A stretch of 25,208 bases of DNA from a virus. Positions 3,004 through 19,080 of the stretch are shown here, piece by piece. A program made the translations under genes and the position numbers. A model generated the notes under the pieces. It was given only the letters and a program-made list of their open reading frames with translations. It was not told where the DNA came from and searched no databases. The stretch covers positions 1 through 25,208 of the IMG/VR virus record IMGVR_UViG_3300025128_000305. The stretch is one strand, 5' to 3'. The stretch's first letter is position 1. The number at the start of each line of letters is the position of its first letter.

Positions 3004-3738
3004 ATGTTTTCAGAAATAATTAAAGAAAAAATTAAATCTCATGCTCTAGAAGACGCCTCCAAAGAATGTTGCGGTTTTGTTGTCGGCGAAGAAACCTTTC
3101 GGTGCCGTAACTATTCCGAAAAACCCAAGCGCCATTTTAATATATCTCCGTATGAATATTTAAAAGCCTCCCGCAAAGGAACTATAAAGGCGGTATACCA
3201 TTCGCACGTTTCCGGAAAGCCTTCTTTTTCCATTCATGATAAACAAGCAAGCCATAATCACAACTTAAAATTTTTGATGTACCACAATCCCACGGGAGGT
3301 TTTTTTACCTATGATCCCGCAAAGGAAAAAACCGTGCAGGTTAATAAAAAGTTTATCCTTGGTGAATCGGACTGTTATACGTTGGTGAAAGATTACTATA
3401 AAGATCTGGGGATAGAACTTGCCGGAAAAAATACTCTCGGTCATGATTGGGTAGATGAAAACCCCCACTTGATTCAAGACCTTTTTGATTTAAATAAAAG
3501 CAACCCAACATTACCCATAACCGAATTACGCAAAGAAACACCTCTTGAAAAACATGACGTTATAGTATTCGAAATGATCAAGGGGATCGGGCCATGCCAT
3601 GTTGGAATCTACCTAGGCGATGAATCCTTATACCATCACCAGAGAAATAAATTTCCCACGATAGAGAAATTAAACAAAACAATTAAAAATAAAATCTATA
3701 AAATATATAGACACACCGCCTTAAATGAACAAAGTTAA
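3004..3738 (+). CDS. lambda gpK-like tail tip protein: JAMM metallopeptidase + NlpC/P60 hydrolase
   Basis: This is a 244-residue two-domain protein typical of lambda gpK. The N-terminal domain (about 1-110) carries a complete JAB1/MPN/Mov34 (JAMM) zinc site: E21 in KECCGFVVG, then H66-S-H68-x7-S76-x2-D79. The C-terminal domain (about 115-244) is NlpC/P60-like, with the nucleophile cysteine C124 in GESDCYTLV and the catalytic histidine H199 in GPCHVGIYLGD. The known role of such C-terminal domains is cleavage of murein peptide bonds during tail penetration. The JAMM domain may process tail proteins. All key residues seen are intact. The last 14 nt overlap the gpI-like gene, as expected of coupled tail-tip genes. 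Confidence 0.93.
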   Translation: MFSEIIKEKIKSHALEDASKECCGFVVGEETFRCRNYSEKPKRHFNISPYEYLKASRKGTIKAVYHSHVSGKPSFSIHDKQASHNHNLKFLMYHNPTGGFFTYDPAKEKTVQVNKKFILGESDCYTLVKDYYKDLGIELAGKNTLGHDWVDENPHLIQDLFDLNKSNPTLPITELRKETPLEKHDVIVFEMIKGIGPCHVGIYLGDESLYHHQRNKFPTIEKLNKTIKNKIYKIYRHTALNEQS

Positions 3739-4493: not shown

Positions 4494-7400
4494 ATGGGTT
4501 TATTTGGAGGAGGAGATGAAATGGAAGCGCGGCCCGTAATTACGGACCAAGGGGGGGTTACATCCAACGGCAATCTACAAGTTGTGGATTCTTCAGCGGA
4601 GGTAGTTGACTTACTTTGCGAAGGAGTAATGGAGGGTCTTGTCAGCGGCTCCTATGCCTATAACGGTACTCAAGGTGATACAGGCTTCTATGAAACAGGT
4701 TTTACCCCTTACATAACAACAGGAACGTCTGGGACACTTTCCACTGAGCTGGGGTTTTTGCGCTCAGTTTATTGGAACGATTTGCCAGTTGTGGATCAAA
4801 ACGGATATTATAACTATTCCAGTATAAACGTCGAATACCACAAAGGGGACCCCGAAGGAAAGCTGCCTGAATTACGAAGTGATTTGCCCGCAAATGAAAC
4901 TCTTGACCTTACCGTCGAAAGACCCATAGGAGAAAGACTTTACGGCCTCTCTACTCAAGGAGGTTCCTATACGTCAAATCTTCAAGGCTTAGCTGACAGT
5001 GCAGCCGTAGACACCGTAGCTAAAACTTACACTATCCTTAATAAAGAATGTACTACCGTAGAAGTAAGAATAAAAGTCACCCAACTCTTCGAGCAGATAA
5101 GAAACGAGGATGCCCCTCGCGATCAGAAAAAAGGTAGAAAACCCGCCCCAGTAGGATACGGCGACATCAAGGCTCGTTCCATAGAGTATTACATTTATTG
5201 GCAGCCCATGTTTGATGACAGGTTCAACCTAGTTTCCTCAACCTCTACTCCTGCCGCTGATACAACTCCGCAAAAATGGCACGGTCCCAGACGCGAAAAA
5301 ATAACAGGCAACGTAGAGCAAGTATACATAAGAAACTCAAAGATCCACTTAAACCGAAGTGGCATATACGCAACCGGACCAAATGCCACGATAACAGATT
5401 ACACCATCATACCCGGCTTTGTCGGCTGGAGGATAAAAATAATCCGTATTACTCCCGAGTCATTAACAGCCTATCTCAAGAATCAATCATACGTAGATTC
5501 CTTAGTGGAAATATATGGGACCAAGCTTCGTTATCCGTATAGCTCGATGGTTTACTCTAAATTTGACGCGGAATTTTTTAACCGGATCCCTAGTAGATCA
5601 TATGATACGAGATTAATAAAAGTCAAAGTTCCAAACAATTACGACCCTATCAAGAAAACTTATGGAATAAGTGATGCTATAGATGTAGGTGCAGTGGACA
5701 GAAGAGGGAACCCTGTTGTATGGCCCCAAAACGTAAAAGTAAAGTCGCGCCTTAAGACTGGGCAAGTAGTCACGTTCGAAGGTGGGGCAAAACTGTACTT
5801 AACTGGGGACACCCCAGATATAACTTACCCAGCTACTTTTTACCAAGAAGTCAACACCCACAGTCTTTTGCACTTTGACGGAGCTAACGGCGATCAGTCT
5901 ACGGTCGACTCAAGTACTTACCCAATACAAATTACCTTAAATGCAGACGCTGAACTTTCCACGACGCAAAAGAAATTTGGAACCTCCAGCCTTTACCTAG
6001 GTGGAATCGGGGATAACGCAACACTAGGAGCAAACGATGGATCTTCATTTGCGTGGAGTAATTCGAGCTGGGGAATCGAATGCTGGGTTAGGCCAGCTAG
6101 TGGATCTTTTTCGGCTGTTCAAATGATTTTTGACTCGAGCGGAGTAATTTACTTGCAAATAAACACGGACGGAAAAGTAGTCTTGCGGAATAAAAAGGCA
6201 AGTGACAGCTCTGAATTTGCAACCATCACTACCACCCAAGCTTTAACTGTGGACACATGGCACCACATAGCGGCCGTAAGAAACGGTAATGACTTTAAAG
6301 TTTATATAGACGGAACCAGTTACGGAAATGCCACGGCGTCAGATACTATCAAGACTGCTACGGCAGCCTCCACAATAGGAGAATACGAAGGGGGTTCTTC
6401 CCAGTACTTTAAAGGGTACATGGATGAATTCCGCATAACAATCGGAGAAGCCCCTTACACCGCCAACTTCACCCCGGCCACAACAGCTTTTCCCAACCCC
6501 TACAAGATTACAAATTACGGAGCTCTCACATCGGGAGCCGCTTACAAATTCGGAATAGGGCAGGGGGTGCATGCCGGGACGCCCAACCATGCTGATCCAG
6601 TCTTTGCCGAAACAGGAGCCACCACAGAAGGATATTCGGGCACAACAGAAGTGGATAACTTTTGGGACGGTGGGTTCAAGCAGGTTTCGGTATGGCCCGA
6701 AGGAGCAGCGGTCGCAACTGACACCGACCCATTAATAATTAAGGAGTGGACAGATAACCCTGCGTGGTGTTTTTATGATTTACTAACCAACCCAAGATAT
6801 GGCTTGGGCGAATATATAAACGAACCTCAAGTAGACAAATGGGCTTTATACGAAATAGCCCAATATTGTGACGTTCTTGTTCCTGACGGTTACGGTTCAA
6901 TCGAACCAAGGTTCACAATGAATCATATCATAACTTCCCGTGAAGAAGCGTATCAGGCAGTAAACAATCTAGCTTCTGTTTTTCGGGGTATTGCATATTA
7001 CGCTAATGGCCTTATCTTTGCGGTACAGGATTCATTCAAAAAACCCTTATATCAATTTAATAATACTAATGTAGTAGAAGGGAATTTTGCCTATTCTTCC
7101 TCTTCAAAAAAAGCACGCCACAGCGTAGCCATTGTTAGATATATTGATAAGCACAATTTATTTGTTCCTGCTGTTGAGTATGTAGAAAACGAGGAATCTA
7201 TAAAAAGATACGGTATACGACAAATAGAAACTTCAGCTTTGGGCGTAACCAGTCGAGGACAGGCGCGTAGACTTGGTCAATGGGTGTTGGCCAGCGAAGC
7301 CGAAGAAACCGAAAGCGTAACTTTTACCGTAGGTCAGGACGGAGCCTATATGAGACCGGGAGACGTTGTTCAAATTTATGACCAGTACAGAACCCCACTC

Positions 7401-10400
7401 AAGCTCGGAGGAAGAACCAACAGCGTTATTGGAACGGGTGTGGCCCCGAGCTCAATAGATTGGTCAAATCCACCAGAAGATCAAAATGGCTCCATAACGG
7501 GTAATAGTGTAATAATAGACAACGTTGTTGAATTTACCACCAACCAAGTCTATAAATTTTCTCTTCTTACTCCAACCTACAATTATGAATCGTCGGACGT
7601 CTCAGACCTAGATTCCAACAGTATCACTGAGATAAGAAGATCTCAACTTCAGACTCTTTATTTTGAGGGAAGTCATGCCCTTTCCGTAACAGGATATTAC
7701 AAATCAGATTATGAGGAAGGGGGCAGCGGAATAGCCACGCAAATTTATTTTCATACCGGATTGATAGTAGAGGGAGGGGAACCCATTGGAACAGGCAACC
7801 AATTAGATTTTGATAATTATGTAATTACAGGGTACACAAACAATTACGTTCAAGGTCCAGACGCGCCTATTATAATGTCGTATTCAGGAGGATGTTTTTC
7901 CGGCGAAAACCTAGTATGGAGTGTTGAACCTAACAACCCTAGTGCACCGGAGTTTATTAGTGGAAACCTATCCAACTACCGTATTATAAACGTAGCTGAA
8001 AATGACGAGGATACCACCTATAATATTTCTGCATTGGCTTACGCCTCGGGAAAGTATGACAAGGTTGAAAATCGATTAAAATTTGACAATCCAATTCAAT
8101 CCCAACCTCCTATCTGGCCATATTATGAAAAGGATAACAATTATTACGCATGGGATGCGGTAAAGATAGAAAAAGCAGGGCCTCACACCCAACAAACCAA
8201 TCCCGCATCGCTACCTCTTACGAGCAACGAAAAAGACAAGTTTAACACCCTTGAAGTAACTATACCTCAAGCCGGACTGAAAACGAAAACCCCCAAATTA
8301 ATGTCTGAAGGTGGTCGTTATAGTTATGAAATTGACGAATCAGAGTCCAGCTTGGTCGTTAACGCAATGTCTTATGGGGTGTTCATTTATGAACAACTAG
8401 CATTGGATGATGTGGGCACCCACCCGCCTTTCGGTGATATCAATCTCAAGTCAGAGCTGTTTACTGCTGAACGAGGCTCAACTCTTCTCTGGCCGGTTAG
8501 CGACGACCAGTGGGGAAACTATAAAAATCGTGAATTTATAACAATAAATGGCAATCCGGGACAAAAAATAGCAAATGGAGGCAACGCAATTCCTTCGGAC
8601 GGAAACCTCTCGGCTTTCTTTGCTGAGGAATTTCTTAATAAAGACACTAACTATTGGGTGGCCGTCTTTGCTTTTAATAATCAAACGCGTTCGGCCAAAG
8701 CTTTAATAGGGCTAATCCCAGCTTCAAACAGCAACATAGCAAGCGATCAAGACACCACCATTGGAAGAAACCAAATACAAAAAGACTCCGCCTTTTCATT
8801 TATAGATGGTATAAACGTCACCAGCTTGACATCAGCCGACCTTATAGGTGATACTCAAATTGCGGGATTAAACCAACTGTCCTCCACCCAACCCTCCTTT
8901 AGCTGGGACGCAGCCTCCGAGTATACCCTCGCAGATGACTACAATCAATTAATGGATATTCCCAGTTACCATGACTATCGAATTACCATTAGGAAGCATG
9001 ATTCAAATCTGAGTCCCAACACCCCCTCCAATGAGATTTATGTGGAAATTACAGGATACAAACCAACAGAAGGTTCTTTTGTTTTCCTCAGAGACTATAA
9101 CAGCCCCCACGTTGTCGAAGATCTTCCCAGTGAAGTAACCGCAGGCAGAGCGACTCTGACCAACAAAAACGGTCACAATTGGTACACGGTAGAAGAAAGC
9201 GGTATTATTTTTAGGGGCGATAAAAATAGTTTTCCCTTAAGAGAATTTGATATTGTTGTAGAAGCTCACGATCCGGCTGGCCTCACCAGTGCAGGCAACA
9301 ACGTAGGAGACAATACTATTCTTGGCCAAAAAGATACCTACACAGATGGCGCGGAAGGATATCAGAAAATGTCCTGTAACATAGGTATTCCAAGCGGGAT
9401 AGTTTTTGCGCAGGGGGATTCTTCATCAGAGGTAGACGCACTGGATGATTACTTCTTCCTAACTCCGTCCCAAGCCTACACAAGAAAATATCCATACGTA
9501 GCGAAGGCTGCATTATACAACAATGGTACACTAAATCTATCCATAGAGCCCTCCACAGACAAAGCGGGAAACAGAATTTTAAACGAGACGCAACTTTCGA
9601 ATTCTTTTCCAGATGTTCGGGGAGTAGTTTACTATTATTCCACAGGAGACAATACGCTTATAGATGAGAGAGTCCAAACAGACCAAGGTTTGGGCGAAGT
9701 TATTTTCAACCCGAAAAACAAAGCTCCAAAGTTTACTTTCTATCCTGACAATATACCCACTTCGCAAATCTTGGGTTATCAAGGGGAAGTAAACTATATG
9801 ACAGCTGCCGATGAGTTCAAACAATGGAGGGAATCTAATCCGAACGCCCCGGGGGTAGCCCACTTCTCGTACACCGAGTCTAAGAACTCAAATGCTGCTT
9901 TTCAATCGTATAGAAATTTTTATGTATTTGATAATTCTACAGATGCGGCAAACATTACCATACCTTTCCCCGACATCGGCGAACCAAGCGTACAAAACAT
10001 CCAGCTAACAATAGCGCTGTTTGATAGCCTTACCTATTTTGAACACTTCAACAGTGATGGAACCCCCAAAACAACCACAATAAATAACTCGGCTTACGCT
10101 GACCCAAACACCGACTACCCTTATCCAGCATGGAACGGTAACGAACTTATTCCTACCTTGTTCACGGAAAGAAACATGAACTTTTCCACGTTACCCCAAA
10201 AAATATACAGTAAGGGGGACACAGGTACAGCTGTGGAGTGGAGGGACAAAGATTTCGGACCCAGCGCAGAAGGGAGCCAAATCTTCCTGAAAGAGCGCAG
10301 CTTACAAACTCAGGGACAAGACGCTCTGGCTTATAGAGCGTGGTTTGATATAACCTTGGACCCCGGCGAAAGAAAACTTATTATGGATTTTGATAAAGAT

Positions 10401-11573
10401 GAGAAGTTGGATCACACATCTTATCGGGGAGGGCATCTGCGGCAAAAGAATGGCACTGTAGCCCTCTACCCAAAGAAAAACAAACTCAAGGGATTCAGCA
10501 AAATGGTTTTTGAAGAAAAGCTTCTTTACGATACGGGTGTAACCGGTACGCATAAATGGTTTCTTTATGGGGGTTATTTGTCTCTTTATTTTGACGATAA
10601 AGTTGGTTTCGATCCTGAACAGTACACAGTCGACGTTGAATTTTCCCAAACAGATTTGGCTTCTGCCTATCTAGCAGCCAACACTTATAAAACCGTAAAA
10701 ATAAGCGACAGTCGAGATCCCTTGGCTGAAGAGAACCAATTAAACCCTAACACCAGAGATTTCGTAGCAAGTAGCACCAATCTTCCCTTGTGTCATCTTT
10801 ACGAAAAAGGCCGAGGATATGTAAAGTTTTATCTCGAGCCTTTTATGTTAAAATCGTATGGCACTGAAATCATTGAGAGAATGCAATCGGGACAGTGCCT
10901 GTGGGTTGTCCAAGCGTGGTTCGTAGGAAATAGTGATTTTGCAGAGTACCCAAACCCCAGAATGAATAATGAGAATCCCAGACAACTAGTATACGAAAGG
11001 GAAAACACGTTGAAGTATGGAACTCAACTCTATAGACAACGAACAATACGCCTCAACGACTTTTATCCCTACGAGGCAAGTCCCAATAAATGGTATAATC
11101 CGGTAACGGCGAACTTCGAAGAGACAGTAACCTATACCAACTTCTTGACCGGTGCTGACAAAGTAACCAAATCAGCTAATATTCAGATTCGTTCTTACAT
11201 ATGGGATACAGGAAAGAAAAGATGGCACACCTTAGAAGATGGGAGCACAATTGAGAGTAACGTTCTAGTGTGGGGTAAGCCATATGGAACCACAATAACT
11301 TGGAGTGGGGGCTTAGTAAACGGAAAAGGGGAAATAAGCGGAACCTCAACACAGACCCTCAAACTTCCCTCTGTCGCTGGAAACGAAGCAATGGAAGCAT
11401 TAAGCGCCGGACAAAAAGCCGTGGCAGTAGGTAACTATATAAACGATGTGGAGGGAATAACAGATACTGATACCAAGACAAACAAACAAGCGTTCCTAGG
11501 AAACATAATCAAACTACGCGGAGGCATCCTTTTAAGCGACAAGCACGGCGGCAAAGTAAATTCGGGGGAGTAA
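4494..11573 (+). CDS. giant lambda gpJ-like central tail tip / host-specificity protein with internal LamG domain
   Basis: This is a 2359-residue protein, about twice lambda gpJ (1132). The N terminus has the family entry (SSAEVVDLLCEGVMEGLVSG, then LRSVYWNDLPVVDQNGYYNY). The core motif is at about residues 749-815 (WTDNPAWCFYDLLTNPRYGLG, then a WALYEIAQYCD helix), followed by RFTMNHIITSREEAYQAVNNLA. Residues to about 962 complete the conserved hub, ending in the MRPGDVVQIYD barrel strand. A concanavalin-like LamG domain is spliced in at about residues 455-665 (HFDGANGD, SSWGIECWVRP, TWHHIAAVRNGNDFKVYIDG, YMDEFRI). The C-terminal 1400 residues are beta-rich, unlike anything I can name, and probably form the fibre that contacts the receptor. 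Nothing suggests truncation. Upstream gap is 1 nt; a GGAGG-like box is not evident, so translational coupling to the gpI-like gene is likely. Confidence 0.92.
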   Translation: MGLFGGGDEMEARPVITDQGGVTSNGNLQVVDSSAEVVDLLCEGVMEGLVSGSYAYNGTQGDTGFYETGFTPYITTGTSGTLSTELGFLRSVYWNDLPVVDQNGYYNYSSINVEYHKGDPEGKLPELRSDLPANETLDLTVERPIGERLYGLSTQGGSYTSNLQGLADSAAVDTVAKTYTILNKECTTVEVRIKVTQLFEQIRNEDAPRDQKKGRKPAPVGYGDIKARSIEYYIYWQPMFDDRFNLVSSTSTPAADTTPQKWHGPRREKITGNVEQVYIRNSKIHLNRSGIYATGPNATITDYTIIPGFVGWRIKIIRITPESLTAYLKNQSYVDSLVEIYGTKLRYPYSSMVYSKFDAEFFNRIPSRSYDTRLIKVKVPNNYDPIKKTYGISDAIDVGAVDRRGNPVVWPQNVKVKSRLKTGQVVTFEGGAKLYLTGDTPDITYPATFYQEVNTHSLLHFDGANGDQSTVDSSTYPIQITLNADAELSTTQKKFGTSSLYLGGIGDNATLGANDGSSFAWSNSSWGIECWVRPASGSFSAVQMIFDSSGVIYLQINTDGKVVLRNKKASDSSEFATITTTQALTVDTWHHIAAVRNGNDFKVYIDGTSYGNATASDTIKTATAASTIGEYEGGSSQYFKGYMDEFRITIGEAPYTANFTPATTAFPNPYKITNYGALTSGAAYKFGIGQGVHAGTPNHADPVFAETGATTEGYSGTTEVDNFWDGGFKQVSVWPEGAAVATDTDPLIIKEWTDNPAWCFYDLLTNPRYGLGEYINEPQVDKWALYEIAQYCDVLVPDGYGSIEPRFTMNHIITSREEAYQAVNNLASVFRGIAYYANGLIFAVQDSFKKPLYQFNNTNVVEGNFAYSSSSKKARHSVAIVRYIDKHNLFVPAVEYVENEESIKRYGIRQIETSALGVTSRGQARRLGQWVLASEAEETESVTFTVGQDGAYMRPGDVVQIYDQYRTPLKLGGRTNSVIGTGVAPSSIDWSNPPEDQNGSITGNSVIIDNVVEFTTNQVYKFSLLTPTYNYESSDVSDLDSNSITEIRRSQLQTLYFEGSHALSVTGYYKSDYEEGGSGIATQIYFHTGLIVEGGEPIGTGNQLDFDNYVITGYTNNYVQGPDAPIIMSYSGGCFSGENLVWSVEPNNPSAPEFISGNLSNYRIINVAENDEDTTYNISALAYASGKYDKVENRLKFDNPIQSQPPIWPYYEKDNNYYAWDAVKIEKAGPHTQQTNPASLPLTSNEKDKFNTLEVTIPQAGLKTKTPKLMSEGGRYSYEIDESESSLVVNAMSYGVFIYEQLALDDVGTHPPFGDINLKSELFTAERGSTLLWPVSDDQWGNYKNREFITINGNPGQKIANGGNAIPSDGNLSAFFAEEFLNKDTNYWVAVFAFNNQTRSAKALIGLIPASNSNIASDQDTTIGRNQIQKDSAFSFIDGINVTSLTSADLIGDTQIAGLNQLSSTQPSFSWDAASEYTLADDYNQLMDIPSYHDYRITIRKHDSNLSPNTPSNEIYVEITGYKPTEGSFVFLRDYNSPHVVEDLPSEVTAGRATLTNKNGHNWYTVEESGIIFRGDKNSFPLREFDIVVEAHDPAGLTSAGNNVGDNTILGQKDTYTDGAEGYQKMSCNIGIPSGIVFAQGDSSSEVDALDDYFFLTPSQAYTRKYPYVAKAALYNNGTLNLSIEPSTDKAGNRILNETQLSNSFPDVRGVVYYYSTGDNTLIDERVQTDQGLGEVIFNPKNKAPKFTFYPDNIPTSQILGYQGEVNYMTAADEFKQWRESNPNAPGVAHFSYTESKNSNAAFQSYRNFYVFDNSTDAANITIPFPDIGEPSVQNIQLTIALFDSLTYFEHFNSDGTPKTTTINNSAYADPNTDYPYPAWNGNELIPTLFTERNMNFSTLPQKIYSKGDTGTAVEWRDKDFGPSAEGSQIFLKERSLQTQGQDALAYRAWFDITLDPGERKLIMDFDKDEKLDHTSYRGGHLRQKNGTVALYPKKNKLKGFSKMVFEEKLLYDTGVTGTHKWFLYGGYLSLYFDDKVGFDPEQYTVDVEFSQTDLASAYLAANTYKTVKISDSRDPLAEENQLNPNTRDFVASSTNLPLCHLYEKGRGYVKFYLEPFMLKSYGTEIIERMQSGQCLWVVQAWFVGNSDFAEYPNPRMNNENPRQLVYERENTLKYGTQLYRQRTIRLNDFYPYEASPNKWYNPVTANFEETVTYTNFLTGADKVTKSANIQIRSYIWDTGKKRWHTLEDGSTIESNVLVWGKPYGTTITWSGGLVNGKGEISGTSTQTLKLPSVAGNEAMEALSAGQKAVAVGNYINDVEGITDTDTKTNKQAFLGNIIKLRGGILLSDKHGGKVNSGE
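5860..6485 (+). other. LamG / concanavalin-A-like domain inserted in the gpJ-like protein
   Basis: The segment encodes about residues 455-665 of the gpJ-like protein. It shows the order of LamG-type lectin domains: a HFDGANGD opening, a WSNSSWGIECWVRP strand, a VDTWHHIAAVRNGNDFKVYIDG core and a closing YFKGYMDEFRI strand followed by a TANFTPATTAF tail. Lambda gpJ lacks such an insert. Domain limits are approximate. A role in binding glycans on the host surface is inferred. Confidence 0.75.
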
Positions 11574-12478: not shown

Positions 12479-15400
12479 GGGGTATTGGGTTTTCCCTGAA
12501 GGAGACCCCCGGGTCGTTGCTGTTTCATTATTTCTTGCAGAACAACTGTTTGAAGAGCCACTCCAAGCTCCTTATTCTTTTGAGCGTCGGCTGCTGCATT
12601 CTCAGAACTTGTATTATCTGTAGATGTTTCCGGCGAGGTACTAACGTCAGCGTTGCCACGCCTATCTATGTTGACGTTAACACTAACATTATTATTTACC
12701 GAACCAACTCCTCCGCCTACGACGCCTCCCACAGGACCTCCCCCGGCCATACCGGGCATCTTGCCTCGATTTAATTCGCCCATGAAACCCAACCCGTGTT
12801 GACGAACGGTGCCAGCGTTCATAATAAACTCACCGCCAGTTAATAGAGCGGGAGAACTTCCCATTGATCCACCCGTCGCAGCCAGCCTCGTGCCGGTGTT
12901 ATTTGCCCCCCCTATCACAGGTGGCCTCGTAATATCATAAATATCTCTTTGTGAGGGAAGGGGATTACTTAGGTTTGGGTTGGGGTCTGACTGCCATGTG
13001 TTCCAACCTTTCTTCGCTATACCAGCCGCTCCTGTCTTGCCCATTAAATAACTTCCTCCCATGAGCATGGCAGCATTCATATATGCCCCGATCAATCGTT
13101 GTCTTTTTTGTTTTTCGTGCGCCTTGATTACAGCTTTTCTACGGGCAGTTTCGGTGAAAAGATAATCAGAGTAAGAACCCATTTTTGTTTCTTTACCAAA
13201 CATCCGTGCTGTTTGAGGATCCTCCGAACCAAGTCTTCCAGCTAACGATAACGCGGAGCTTACCTCATATCTACCCTCTGTTGGGCGTGCTTTTTCACTA
13301 ATTAGCCTTCCCGTTTTGGGATCCCTTCTATAATAAACATAAGCTTTATTTAACGATACTTGAGCGGCGTTACTTCCACCCGCAAAAGAACTCCCCCCTC
13401 CGGCATCTGGATCAGGGCCACCAAAATAACCATGTTTACCCCTACCAAATCCGTAATTCTTTCCTCTCCAAGGTTTCTTTCTTCCGCCCTGACCACTTTG
13501 ATTCAAAAATCCAGAAGCAGCGCTTGCAGCAGCCGATACAGCAAACATACTTCCCATACTGGGCCCTCCAGATTGAAATCCGGGTAACCCTCCAGAATTT
13601 ATAGCGTTCAAAGTTCCATAACCAATTTTTTGCGCTGATGATTTCTTAATTACATATTCTCCTCCACTCATCATTGTGGGAACATCGTCCTTGTACCCTG
13701 AACCTCCCGTAACAACACCTCCACTTGCATACGTGCCACCGCCCCACCCCATTTTGCTAAACAGCATGTTGGTCATCATTTGGTTGGATACATCAGAAAT
13801 AGAATCAAGAATGCTTGAAGCCATGTTAGCCAAAGCTCCTTGAACAGTATCTGCCCCGCTTGCAATAGACTTAAATGCATCAGAAAAAGATGACTTCATG
13901 TTTTGGGCGACACTTCTTGTTCCCGCTTCCCAGTCTTCAAGCATATCTACTGGTTTGTAACCCATTTCGTTTACAAACCCCGCCTTAAAAGCTCTATTAA
14001 AATCACCCGGTTGAACACCTTCAGCCGCAACATCCCTTGCAAGTTTCGCTGAATAGGCTGAAGCATAACCTCTCGCACCAAGCTTCCCACCCCGCATACG
14101 TTCTTCAGCATCCCTTAATTGATGACCAGCCAATGACGCCTCAATCAGTCTTTGTTCTTGGGCTCTGGCTTTGTTGTATTCATACTGAAGAGCCAAGGAT
14201 TTTTTATCAGTTTCAAATTTTTTCTCCGCTATTTCGTTAGCTTTAGCCAAGTCATCAGCATTGGCTATTACTGCCCCATCTAGATCTTTGAATGCCTTAT
14301 CCAACATCTTAATGGTTTCGGGAAGGAACTTAAACGACGAAGCATCTTTTGGGTCAACCACTCCCTTGATCATCTTGTCACCGGTTAATCCCATTAACCT
14401 TTCTCGCAGCCTTGCAATCTCTGCTTCTGACCCTTCTTTTACCCCGGTAATTTTTCCATCTTTGCTTACTGTGAGGTTGGACTGAAGGGCTTGGAGATCC
14501 GCTAAAGCCTGCCGACCCGTTTCAGCGGTGAACCCCTGTCCTGCCGCAAATTTTACAAAGTCTTGTTTTTCTAAGCCGCCTGCGACCGCTTCCTCAAATT
14601 TTTTCCTAGCTATACGTTCCTTTTCTCCCCCAATTCCAAAGACCTTCCGATTTTCATCCAAAGCTCTTTGTCTAGCTGCCGGTATCGCTGCTGCCCGAGT
14701 CATGGTTGCGTTTTCGATAGCCACTGCCTGAGCGGTTTCGAAACCGGTCATTTTCTTGCGATGAGCCACTTCACGAGCAAGCTCTTTTGACGAAAGTCTA
14801 AGCTCATGCGCGAACTTTCTGAGGGCCTCCTGTCCCGCATTGGCTTCAATTAAAACCTTCTGGAAGTTATCAGCCTCTTCGTCTATCCCTTGTTGGGTGG
14901 CAATCAAACGCTTTAATACCTCATTGTACCTATCGCTATCAGCAAAAATATTAACCAAATGATCCCTTAAAGCATCGAAACCTTCCGACCCCAACGCCGA
15001 AAGACCTCTATTCTCCCCGACTAAATCACCTTGCACTAATTGGCGCGCTTCCGCACCTTGGAGCCCTAAGAGAGCACCCAACATATCCTCCATGCTAAAA
15101 TCTGAGATTCCTTGGGCAGTAATCCCCCTATTATATAACGCTTCGAAACCCGCTCTTTCACCTTCTTTGCCACTTAACCCTAAATTTGAGATAAGCCCCT
15201 TAATTAATTCGGGATCAGGTTTTTTGAAAGCGTCTTTTTCCGCTGTAAATTGAAGAGAGTTGATAAATTTCTTTCGTTGTTCCTCTCTAAATTCAAGTTG
15301 TCGGATGTCATTTCCCATATACGGACTCAACGCTCCCGTACTCATATATCTCGTTATCCCCTCACCTACTTGTTTATTTACAGCCTCGGATGTTGGGATT

Positions 15401-18400
15401 AATGAAGTCCGGTCTCCGGTCAATGAAGCTAATTTTTGTTTACTAGCTATGCGAGTATCCAGTTTAGTTTTAAGATTTTCTAGCTGTTTTACAGAGGTTG
15501 CCCCCTCTAAAGCTTTAAATTCCTCAGTCCCACCTATACCCAAAGACTTAAAGTCTTTTGCGCCTGAGTAAGTCGTTTTAGTTATGTCTACCACATTCCT
15601 AACGGATACTGCGTCGAGTTTATTCTTTAAAGCCTCTATGTTTTCAGAGGCTTTTTCAGAGGCTTTGGCCAAGCTTAATTGACTATCTGTTTCTGTATCT
15701 AGGGCGTCACCAGCTTCATCTGCAGCCCCCGTAAAAAGTTTAATTGCTTCTGTTACTATCCCCAAGGCTCCCCCTATTACAGCGCCGGGGACCCCTCCGC
15801 CAAACGCAGCGCCCATAGCAGCGGAAGAAGCTATATTCACTAAAGGGTTATCCATGGCACCCATTAACCCGAGAGCACCTATTCCAGCTCCGCCTTGTCC
15901 TACTCTCTTACCAAAGCCCTGAACCTTTTCAAACCTTGACCTGCCAAGATGTTTGATCCCAAATTTAGCAAGACCCAAACCAAAATTAGGAACAAATCCT
16001 GAAGCTGCTCCGTGCATCGTGGGATCTATACCACTTCTTTGAGATCTTCTAATTCCTTGACTTAAACCGGCGGGTTCGTGAATAGTATTATAAACTCCCA
16101 CACCTCCGGGATTTCCCGCAGACCTTAACGCAGGATTAGTTCCTACCCTTATCGCAGAAGCGGGCACCCCAGCCATCATTTCCCTTCCTACAGAATTGGA
16201 TAATGCCGAAGCAAAATTAGGAACATATCCTCGTGCTGCACCGGGAGTTCCATATCGGATTCGCTTATTCTTGAGCATACCTTCATAACCGGGACGCTCA
16301 CTTGACAATCTTCTCTGAAACGCAAACTTTTTAGTGGGGTCTCTCATTACTCCCCCCTCCTTTTCTAAATTGGACGTGTATGTTAAGTTGTTTCCTCGAG
16401 CGCCATTAGTTAATAATTCATTTATTAACTTATTCACCATCGAATCCACTGGAGATTCCCGATCAGAAATTTTCAAATCACCTTTTTCCCACGGAATACC
16501 TCCTCCCCCAAACAAGCTTTTTACATCTTTGTTAGGGTTAAACACATCCCAATCAGCTAAAGTATTTCCTTTGTTTTTCGGATCAGATGCAGACAGATGC
16601 ATTGAAGCTAAAACCCCCGTCTCGAAAGCGGCTCCCGCAGCCGAGTTTATTGCTCCCATTGCCCCCTTTATTCCAAAACCGGGGTGTCCCGGCTCAAGGG
16701 TTCCCGCTATAGCTGCTTTAAACGTGTCCTTGTCCCAATTAGTTCCCGGGGGTACGAGAGAAGCTGAAACATTGGCCGCAGCCCCAGCTGCAGCTGAGAG
16801 CATCATATCCTCTATATCGCCGGGGGGATTTTTTTTATTCTTTCTGGCCCATGAATTACTGTAACCAATCGACGGAAAAGTAGCTGTCCATTTCTTATTT
16901 TCTTTTCTTCCTACACCGGTAAAAGCTAAATTTTGATAACCCAACTTGGGTATCAACATTGCAAAAGCGTTCTTTTTAACTTGTATGTGACCTCCAGCGG
17001 TTCTGAAGTCGTTGAATAATTGCCTGTCTGCCCCTTTTGCCTGCTTAGATGCACCAATTGTCTGAAAATGACCTGCCGTCTTGGGCATCTGTTGCCCCTT
17101 ACCTATCCCAAATTTACTGCCCAAACCAAAAGCAAAATTAGGAACAAACCCACTTGCGGCATAAGGATCAAAACCATGAGCAGCACCAAAAGCGGCTTTG
17201 TATCCCGCTCCAGCAGGGCTTCCCTGAGGAGGCATGATAGCTGACTGAGACATTCCGGGAAAACGTTTAACCGTTTCGGCAGAATTATACATCATAGTTC
17301 CCGCACCCGGCTGTGACATAGTCCTAATACTTCCGGCCCTATATCCCCCAGCGGCCGCGGCCGCTCTTTCCGACCCGGCATCCGCGAAGTTAGGAACAAA
17401 ACCCTCGGCTCGTCCCCTTCCTCCCCCTCTTAAATATGTCCCACTACTCCCTACTCTAGCCCCTCTTCCATACAAAGCTCCCGCTATGGGCCTTGCGTAA
17501 GCCTGCATTTTAGCTCTTTCCGCTGTTTGAAGCTTGAGCGTATTAAGAACCCTTTGCTCTAGTGAAGCAACATCCAAAGTCCCTTTTGCTACCTGTTTTA
17601 ATAAAGCGGGCTCGGCAGCTATTGTAGCAACCACAGCCTCCTCAAGAGCTGCTCGTTGTTTAGTAGCGCTGTTTATCCCTACTACATCCATTAGGGCTTG
17701 TTTGGCGAACTTGCCCAGACTCATTGCCAGCTTGGCAAAAACGGCAGTAGCCATGATCAAACCCGGGCCCCCTATGAACTTGCCCATTCCTTTTACAATA
17801 TCTGATCCAAAACCCTCTCCAAATTTTTCAAACTTTCCACCTTCTCCAAAGGCATCTATTATACCGTTGACGGTTCCCAAAATATTTTCTATGGCTGGCC
17901 CGAAAAGACCACCTCCCAAAGTAGCTCCAGCTTGAGTCAAGTTGGCTAAAGTTCTGTTTACCAATGAGTCCAAGGTCTGATTTAACCTTTCGTTCTTGGT
18001 GTAAGCTTCATCAGTAGCGCTATTGGCTGCTCTTAACGCTCCGCTATAAGCGGAAGTCTCCTGCGACAAATCCGCTAACGCTGCTTTTAAAATATTAACC
18101 TGAAAAACACCCGCAACATTTTCTGAAATAGTGGCTTGCTGGGACCTTGTAAGTTTATCAAATTCTCCAGCTAAATTCTGCAATACTTTAATGCCCGAAA
18201 GCATATTGCCCTGCATGTCCCGGGTAGCTACCCCAATATTAGCGAGCTTTTGCTGAACCTCACTACGTTGTATACGCGTGAAAATTGTTTTAAAGGCGTT
18301 ACCAATTACAGCACCACCCCGAGCAGTTCTCTGTTGGACAGCCGTTGTGATAGCCATCAACTCATTCATGTTTACTCCAGCCGAAACCGCAGAAGCACCC

Positions 18401-19080
18401 ACACGAGAAATCGACTTTGCCAAATCTTCAGAACTTACGGCAAACTTGGCGTCAACCTTAGCCATTCTATTAATAACCTCTGAAGAAGTGACACCCTCTT
18501 TATTAAATGAGTTAACTGCGGCCGTTAAAGTTTTAACTGCGTCAGCCGCGTTCATTCCGGTCAGACGAGTAAGGATCAGGGCATCTTTTGTTCGCAAGAG
18601 AGTCTTTTCTGTTCCCAAACCTTGACGAGCAAGTTCTACCCCCGCCTCCGCTACAGTCTCAAAAGCTTGAGCCGTTTCCTTGGCAACCTTGAACATTCCT
18701 TTACCAAACTTTTCTAGTTGTTTGTTGTTCAAGTCCATGACGATGTTGACATCCATCAGGGCTTTTTCGACTTTAAGGGCGGAAGCTACCATTGCTTTCA
18801 TAGCACGGTCTACGCCCATTATAAGACCAGCCGAAGCACCAAACGCTATAACGCGTGCGTTAGATGCTTCTAATGATTTGCTGAATTCATCGGCTTTGAC
18901 AGTAGCCTTGGATAGTCCTGTTCCGAGGGCGCGTACTTTGTCGCCACCACCTCCAGCCCCCCCAAAGGCTTTTCCCATGGTTTTCCCCATGTCCCCAAGC
19001 TTACGATTAATCTTTGCGATTTCTCGTTCGGCCTGCTTGGTGGCCAACATAAGATCGACCGTTATTTTATCCCTAGCCAT
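12475..19080 (-). CDS. tail tape measure protein with repeats and an internal nuclease-like segment
   Basis: This 2201-residue protein matches the TP901-type tape measure family at about residues 50-330 (GASAGLIMGVDRAMKAMVAS, AVNSFNKEGVTSSEVINRMA, then VGASAVSAGVNMNELMAIT and FTRIQRSEVQQKLANIGVA). Long coiled and Ala/Gly-rich stretches follow, including hydrophobic segments near 440-470 and 1060-1115. Four A-x-G-[FY]-V-P-N-F motifs sit at F561, F645, Y952 and F1029, and the 300-residue segment between the second and third has nuclease-like residues (separate entry). Two C-terminal GGE[YF] repeats (near 1805 and 2083) with nearby IN-x-G-x2-P are common in tape measure C termini. The lambda rule of about 0.15 nm per residue would give a tail up to roughly 330 nm, less if the insert is not extended. 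The start at 19080 has AGGA 4 nt upstream, within a 14-bp palindrome. Confidence 0.93.
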   Translation of the reverse strand: MARDKITVDLMLATKQAEREIAKINRKLGDMGKTMGKAFGGAGGGGDKVRALGTGLSKATVKADEFSKSLEASNARVIAFGASAGLIMGVDRAMKAMVASALKVEKALMDVNIVMDLNNKQLEKFGKGMFKVAKETAQAFETVAEAGVELARQGLGTEKTLLRTKDALILTRLTGMNAADAVKTLTAAVNSFNKEGVTSSEVINRMAKVDAKFAVSSEDLAKSISRVGASAVSAGVNMNELMAITTAVQQRTARGGAVIGNAFKTIFTRIQRSEVQQKLANIGVATRDMQGNMLSGIKVLQNLAGEFDKLTRSQQATISENVAGVFQVNILKAALADLSQETSAYSGALRAANSATDEAYTKNERLNQTLDSLVNRTLANLTQAGATLGGGLFGPAIENILGTVNGIIDAFGEGGKFEKFGEGFGSDIVKGMGKFIGGPGLIMATAVFAKLAMSLGKFAKQALMDVVGINSATKQRAALEEAVVATIAAEPALLKQVAKGTLDVASLEQRVLNTLKLQTAERAKMQAYARPIAGALYGRGARVGSSGTYLRGGGRGRAEGFVPNFADAGSERAAAAAGGYRAGSIRTMSQPGAGTMMYNSAETVKRFPGMSQSAIMPPQGSPAGAGYKAAFGAAHGFDPYAASGFVPNFAFGLGSKFGIGKGQQMPKTAGHFQTIGASKQAKGADRQLFNDFRTAGGHIQVKKNAFAMLIPKLGYQNLAFTGVGRKENKKWTATFPSIGYSNSWARKNKKNPPGDIEDMMLSAAAGAAANVSASLVPPGTNWDKDTFKAAIAGTLEPGHPGFGIKGAMGAINSAAGAAFETGVLASMHLSASDPKNKGNTLADWDVFNPNKDVKSLFGGGGIPWEKGDLKISDRESPVDSMVNKLINELLTNGARGNNLTYTSNLEKEGGVMRDPTKKFAFQRRLSSERPGYEGMLKNKRIRYGTPGAARGYVPNFASALSNSVGREMMAGVPASAIRVGTNPALRSAGNPGGVGVYNTIHEPAGLSQGIRRSQRSGIDPTMHGAASGFVPNFGLGLAKFGIKHLGRSRFEKVQGFGKRVGQGGAGIGALGLMGAMDNPLVNIASSAAMGAAFGGGVPGAVIGGALGIVTEAIKLFTGAADEAGDALDTETDSQLSLAKASEKASENIEALKNKLDAVSVRNVVDITKTTYSGAKDFKSLGIGGTEEFKALEGATSVKQLENLKTKLDTRIASKQKLASLTGDRTSLIPTSEAVNKQVGEGITRYMSTGALSPYMGNDIRQLEFREEQRKKFINSLQFTAEKDAFKKPDPELIKGLISNLGLSGKEGERAGFEALYNRGITAQGISDFSMEDMLGALLGLQGAEARQLVQGDLVGENRGLSALGSEGFDALRDHLVNIFADSDRYNEVLKRLIATQQGIDEEADNFQKVLIEANAGQEALRKFAHELRLSSKELAREVAHRKKMTGFETAQAVAIENATMTRAAAIPAARQRALDENRKVFGIGGEKERIARKKFEEAVAGGLEKQDFVKFAAGQGFTAETGRQALADLQALQSNLTVSKDGKITGVKEGSEAEIARLRERLMGLTGDKMIKGVVDPKDASSFKFLPETIKMLDKAFKDLDGAVIANADDLAKANEIAEKKFETDKKSLALQYEYNKARAQEQRLIEASLAGHQLRDAEERMRGGKLGARGYASAYSAKLARDVAAEGVQPGDFNRAFKAGFVNEMGYKPVDMLEDWEAGTRSVAQNMKSSFSDAFKSIASGADTVQGALANMASSILDSISDVSNQMMTNMLFSKMGWGGGTYASGGVVTGGSGYKDDVPTMMSGGEYVIKKSSAQKIGYGTLNAINSGGLPGFQSGGPSMGSMFAVSAAASAASGFLNQSGQGGRKKPWRGKNYGFGRGKHGYFGGPDPDAGGGSSFAGGSNAAQVSLNKAYVYYRRDPKTGRLISEKARPTEGRYEVSSALSLAGRLGSEDPQTARMFGKETKMGSYSDYLFTETARRKAVIKAHEKQKRQRLIGAYMNAAMLMGGSYLMGKTGAAGIAKKGWNTWQSDPNPNLSNPLPSQRDIYDITRPPVIGGANNTGTRLAATGGSMGSSPALLTGGEFIMNAGTVRQHGLGFMGELNRGKMPGMAGGGPVGGVVGGGVGSVNNNVSVNVNIDRRGNADVSTSPETSTDNTSSENAAADAQKNKELGVALQTVVLQEIMKQQRPGGLLQGKPNTP
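15978..17409 (-). repeat. four A-x-G-[FY]-V-P-N-F repeats in the tape measure protein
   Basis: Copies are centred on F561 (codon 17398-17400, EGFVPNFA), F645 (17146-17148, AASGFVPNFA), Y952 (16225-16227, AARGYVPNFA) and F1029 (15994-15996, AASGFVPNFG). Copies 2 and 4 share a longer unit, with the motif followed by GLG-x-KFGI. The linkers before them are also alike (MYNSAETVKRFPGMSQS and VYNTIHEPAGLSQGI, each with a later DP). The repeats divide the protein into a short linker, a domain of about 300 residues and another short linker. Confidence 0.85.
16250..17110 (-). other. candidate PD-(D/E)XK nuclease-like cargo domain inside the tape measure protein
   Basis: This encodes about residues 657-944, between the second and third GFVPNFA-type repeats. 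A helix AGAAFETGVLASM carries E820. A strand-like LADWDVFNP carries D843 and D845. A strand GDLKIS carries D868-x-K870, followed by a helix (VDSMVNKLINELL). This order, acidic residue in a helix, then D, then D-x-K, fits the restriction-endonuclease-like (PD-(D/E)XK) fold. The composition is globular, with none of the coiled repeats expected of a ruler segment. Fold and activity are inferred from motif order only. Confidence 0.5.

Follow-up and report, generated by a model that had tools for sequence, protein, structure and literature searches.

Why should a phage tape measure protein (TMP) enclose what looks like a nuclease? The question is raised by the window analysed here, a stretch of 25,208 nt (positions 1 to 25,208 of IMG/VR virus record IMGVR_UViG_3300025128_000305). 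Its tail genes are of the lambda type (gpM, gpL and a gpK-like protein), the 2201-residue frame among them is a tape measure gene by its PhageMin_Tail domain and its matches to several tail-length tape-measure PHROGs, and the source is an uncultivated lambda-like siphophage (Table 1). The initial annotation had placed a globular insert at TMP residues 657-944 (exact in-frame range 16249-17112) between repeats of the GFVPNF type, read its acidic and lysine residues as a PD-(D/E)XK nuclease fold, and suggested delivery into the host. The insert was borne out, with repeats beginning at residues 644 and 951 on either side of it; a fourth repeat, again GFVPNF, lies at residue 1028.

Table 1. Window coordinates of the tape measure gene and of features within it.
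Feature	TMP residues	Position	Strand	Remarks
TMP, 2201 aa		12475..19080	-	ORF; PhageMin_Tail E 7.3e-27; several tail-length tape-measure PHROGs
PhageMin_Tail, conserved N-terminal TMP domain	133-324	18109..18684	-	block used to find relatives
Repeat 1, GFVPNF	560-565	17386..17403	-	
Repeat 2, GFVPNF	644-649	17134..17151	-	upstream cassette boundary; L008/L013 identity breaks here
Cassette between repeats 2 and 3	650-950	16231..17133	-	
Folded nuclease-like domain	about 683-908	16357..17034	-	AlphaFold2 with 55 rows; family profile
G816 of GxxFE	816	16633..16635	-	invariant, 64/64
E820, predicted acidic residue, helix 1	820	16621..16623	-	63 E + 1 D of 64; model helix 137-155
D845, predicted metal ligand	845	16546..16548	-	64/64; immediately ahead of model strand 175-176
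D868 of D-x-K	868	16477..16479	-	52 D + 12 E of 64; model strand 195-198
K870 of D-x-K	870	16471..16473	-	63/64, one S
K884, next helix	884	16429..16431	-	58 K + 6 Q of 64; model helix 204-221
Repeat 3, GYVPNF	951-956	16213..16230	-	downstream cassette boundary
Unit from repeat 3 to repeat 4 (GVYNTI unit)	951-1033	15982..16230	-	conserved; 70-74% identity to L002-L005

The tail-tip genes lie on the plus strand and converge with the TMP gene. They encode a gpK-like protein with Prok-JAB and NlpC/P60 domains (3004-3738) and a gpJ-like protein (Phage-tail_3; 4494-11573), the latter with a Laminin_G_3/concanavalin-like stretch at residues 520-648 (E 9e-20) that suggests a receptor-binding insert; in one relative (L005) the corresponding gpJ-like stretch appears without it.

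Relatives of the cassette were reached through its flanks. Direct scans with the cassette segment failed to reach the closest relatives, whereas scans with the N-terminus of the TMP and with the GVYNTI unit did so. The N-terminus found four close relatives (71-81% identity in the probe) in which the segments between the same repeats differ, yet the order GxxFE, FD, DxK recurs, or the segment is missing (L005). The GVYNTI unit yielded 49 loci and the N-terminal block 385 relatives, of which 80 were taken, some of their contigs being already in the set. A first profile iteration drifted via the shared repeats into unrelated cassettes, so the flanks were stripped and the search was redone; the iterative search then assigned to one family 76 of the 183 segments lying between repeats in related IMG/VR phages. 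The domain is a member of this previously unassigned family. Pfam, NCBIfam, PADLOC and PHROG gave it no assignment, and searches with the segment alone found no match in Pfam, among PDB sequences or among named phages and drew one weak match from the PHROGs (E 0.11).

The domain belongs to TMPs. In 59 complete non-redundant TMP frames, scored with hmmsearch --max because the default setting missed members, it is present in 46 of the 47 with at least three repeats and in two of the 12 with fewer, counts that describe the group rather than phages at large, the loci having been chosen by likeness to this TMP. Sister TMPs without it are L005/L020, L064 and L072. A search of 23 phage records gave matches in 18, each inside a large, TMP-size frame free of stop codons, and never outside a TMP frame. 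Related TMPs also occur on three bacterial-genome contigs binned as Flavobacteriales, one of them with the family domain, and these binned viral contigs give a weak hint of Flavobacteriales as host; 395 other Flavobacteriales genomes gave no match to the domain.

What holds the family together is a small set of residues. Over 64 non-redundant members, at about 17% identity, the majority of the remaining columns are variable. The hallmark of the PD-(D/E)XK superfamily is a bipartite (P)D...(D/E)xK motif with an acidic residue on helix 1 (PMC1189080), and both elements are found in the cassette domain; to judge from the alignment, E820, D845, D868-x-K870 and K884 are the PD-(D/E)XK residue set, in order. 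The five positions originally named (E820, D843, D845, D868 and K870) are all where they were said to be, and the homologues keep the acidic and lysine set, including D or E at position 868 in every member, although the profile that collected them rewards these columns; its first round, however, required whole-domain similarity alone. D843 falls outside the site, being D in just 13 of the 64. K884, absent from the original list, is K or Q throughout, and F819 is kept in 61 members.

Predicted structure accommodates this site but leaves the fold unproven. AlphaFold2 gave a pLDDT of 34 from the segment as a single sequence and, with 55 aligned relatives, a model with mean pLDDT 79.9 and pTM 0.76 (TMP residue = model residue n+671). 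The model begins with a four-strand meander (26-69) and helices 85-104 and 113-121, continues through the helix bearing E820, the strand that follows D845 and a helix at 180-186, and ends with the strand of D868, the helix of K884 and a further strand (228-232); the model is confident over about TMP residues 683-903, and the final ~40 residues of the 657-944 segment are linker-like. After the meander the order is thus helix, strand, helix, strand, helix, strand, as against the alpha-beta-beta-beta-alpha-beta core. PD-(D/E)XK enzymes likewise have a helix with E, then D, a strand with (D/E)-x-K, a helix with K/Q and a following strand, whereas the cassette model adds the N-terminal meander and the short helix between D845 and D868. 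Foldseek found no solved relative (best E 0.5 in PDB, 0.4 in BFVD) and no PD-(D/E)XK nuclease among the best 50 matches listed from either database. In hhalign the domain matched neither UPF0102 nor Mrr, a comparison without power, since the positive control, UPF0102 against Mrr, failed too. No significant match was obtained by sequence, profile or fold. The proposed nuclease fold has the motif set, its order and the secondary structure on its side and the Foldseek result and the departure from the textbook order of elements against it; on the model, the domain may be an unusual PD-(D/E)XK variant.

The cassette is also the place where close relatives part. Between L008 and L013 it is 41% identical (about 30-50% along its length) whereas the adjoining blocks are 96-99% identical: identity is near 100% up to repeat 2, breaks at GFVPNF/GF[VI]PNF on either side of the cassette, and returns to about 98% past repeat 3. 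Taken alone this pair, a case of apparent allelic replacement or extreme divergence, fits either exchange or very fast divergence. Across the relatives, as far as their alignments tell, whole cassettes come and go, and they are replaced, or diversify rapidly, as a unit. The domain itself is under purifying selection by the codon comparisons, dN/dS being 0.016-0.35 in unsaturated pairs, with an exception in L010/L012 (0.58) that differ too little to judge. No RNA structure is indicated at the cassette border (z 0.36). The L008/L013 plot has a second variable stretch around residues 1000-1400. In the TMP studied here, residues ~1034-1400 (about 14881-15981, minus strand) form a stretch that includes a glycine-rich hydrophobic segment; the counterpart of this stretch in L008/L013 varies between 10 and 72% identity.

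The idea that such cassettes are cargo is supported by sister TMPs, because in these a database-recognisable enzyme occupies the same region. In L104 a single frame encodes PhageMin_Tail (E 7e-23), the family domain and PolyA_pol (E 1e-13), and residues 1213-1681 are a poly(A) polymerase head domain with GGAPRD and DWD intact. For the copy in L044 the matches are solved CCA/poly(A) enzymes (E 2e-22), and GGAPRD...DWD is kept in both. L044 (record G416) is itself a TMP-like frame of 10,566 residues with two nuclease-like domains beside the poly(A)/CCA-type nucleotidyltransferase. Further inter-repeat cassettes, in L024 (residues 944-1099 and 1106-1299) and L046 (residues 1022-1165), are candidates for P-loop NTPase-like, kinase/APH-like and HAD-like domains. 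The P-loop likeness is weak, and the kinase-like (DLHGSN, IDPG) and HAD-like (DWDGT) features were recognised by eye alone, these kinase/APH-like and HAD-like cassettes having no family matches. Short cassettes in L026 (residues 636-807), L030 (634-831) and L039 (632-782) have an E...D...(E)xK-like pattern of their own, e.g. LLEVKSG, and are possibly a second nuclease-like family.

A folded domain of ~220 residues would be expected to be tight in the lumen of a tail tube, which speaks against delivery. In the pathway proposed here by analogy, the cassette would be made as part of the TMP, be housed in the tail tube with no rigid fold, exit together with the TMP upon tail discharge, and fold in the host, where it would cleave nucleic acid of the host, of a plasmid or of a rival phage at a magnesium-dependent PD-(D/E)XK-type site formed by E820 on its helix, D845, D868-x-K870 and K884. 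DNA would be the presumed substrate, and the phage would presumably benefit. On leaving the tail, TMPs contact the membrane or enter it, and for contractile systems it has been proposed that a globular domain accommodates itself to the lumen and takes up its fold once ejected (PMC13277306). That the locus encodes a diversifying TMP cassette of a metal-dependent nuclease of PD-(D/E)XK type that enters the host along with the TMP, we regard as about an even proposition.

Several known systems resemble this arrangement in part. The MuF polymorphic toxins of temperate phages also place exchangeable enzyme domains on a virion-type protein, but their carrier is a MuF head protein whose C-terminal toxin varies, and they come with immunity proteins, whereas here the carrier is the TMP and the cassette is internal (PMC5576092). 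Domain search found no MuF domain in the TMP; a variable effector beside a conserved carrier, as in MuF systems, is nevertheless what the L008/L013 comparison displays. Proteins of the polyvalent type, which are injected together with phage or plasmid DNA, similarly combine several unlike enzyme domains in a single virion-associated chain; the main text of their survey makes no mention of tape measure proteins, and the scaffold in the present case is the tail ruler (PMC5512222). In the TMP-related effectors Sle1 and Tme, exchangeable domains on a TMP-like scaffold are likewise packed in a tube and ejected, but these belong to bacterial contractile injection systems and their domains are C-terminal rather than internal to a phage TMP (PMC13277306). 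TMPs of the SPbeta YomI type (annotated as transglycosylase) also contain an enzyme, but one that cuts peptidoglycan during entry, whereas the site here is of nuclease type. Mosaicism in phage proteins was surveyed in 2023, with a mosaic signal from TMPs that the authors were unable to confirm as genuine (PMC10684548). Our literature search returned no report of nuclease-type cassettes in phage TMPs, a weak absence in that most subscription journals were outside its coverage.

The main rival to delivery of a nuclease is a real enzyme that serves the phage itself, processing or holding the incoming DNA end or assisting tail assembly, rather than attacking host or competitor. Near-universal presence in the repeat-bearing TMPs of the group is what housekeeping predicts, and confinement to the TMP frame agrees with it, but some sister TMPs do without the domain, other cassettes hold unrelated enzymes, and replacement or strong divergence of the non-site sequence between near-identical phages fits conflict better than fixed assembly; we hold this reading to be unlikely. 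Somewhat less unlikely is that the fold is other than PD-(D/E)XK, E, D, DxK and K making up a metal or phosphate site with a different activity. The Foldseek matches listed, devoid of such nucleases despite a pTM of 0.76, and the unusual order of elements, with its leading meander and the helix between D845 and D868, would be explained. Yet PD-(D/E)XK members are notorious for evading similarity searches, and the residues are exactly the superfamily's hallmark, including the D/E and K/Q swaps at the usual positions (PMC1189080).

Two further readings were considered. Homing endonucleases are known to interrupt TMP genes, as in phage ICP1 (PMC10448857), and a nuclease motif combined with mobility might likewise denote a selfish element residing in the gene for its own spread. 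The segment is, however, in frame, with zero stop codons across all matches, its borders are protein repeats rather than those of an intron, and neighbouring cassettes of sister phages include enzymes that are not nucleases; a homing-like origin is very improbable. The insert might instead be inert, a length or spacer element with an accidental motif. Tail length is set by TMP length and inserts can be tolerated, as would suit the sister TMPs that lack the segment, but the invariance of acidic and lysine residues at such low overall identity and dN/dS values well below 1 leave this reading scarcely tenable.

Beyond the proposed delivery of a nuclease cassette, a more general reading covers a broad group of uncultivated siphophages and would make their TMP a magazine from which exchangeable enzymes are injected, with the GFVPNF repeats as cassette borders, the new nuclease family near-universal, and other slots filled by CCA/poly(A)-type nucleotidyltransferase and by the P-loop, kinase-like and HAD-like candidates. 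We rate this tentatively, at a little below even. Injection of enzymes from the phage head is already known; if true, the magazine would add to MuF and polyvalent head proteins a third class of carrier for polymorphic phage effectors. It would raise a structural question, namely how so narrow a tube can hold a domain of ~220 residues and how that domain regains its fold once ejected. The differences bounded by repeats constitute natural experiments, near-identical phages differing mainly in such variable regions. A TMP with a diversifying nuclease-type domain, and in its sisters a nucleotidyltransferase, would amount to a delivery scaffold whose contents can be read from sequence.
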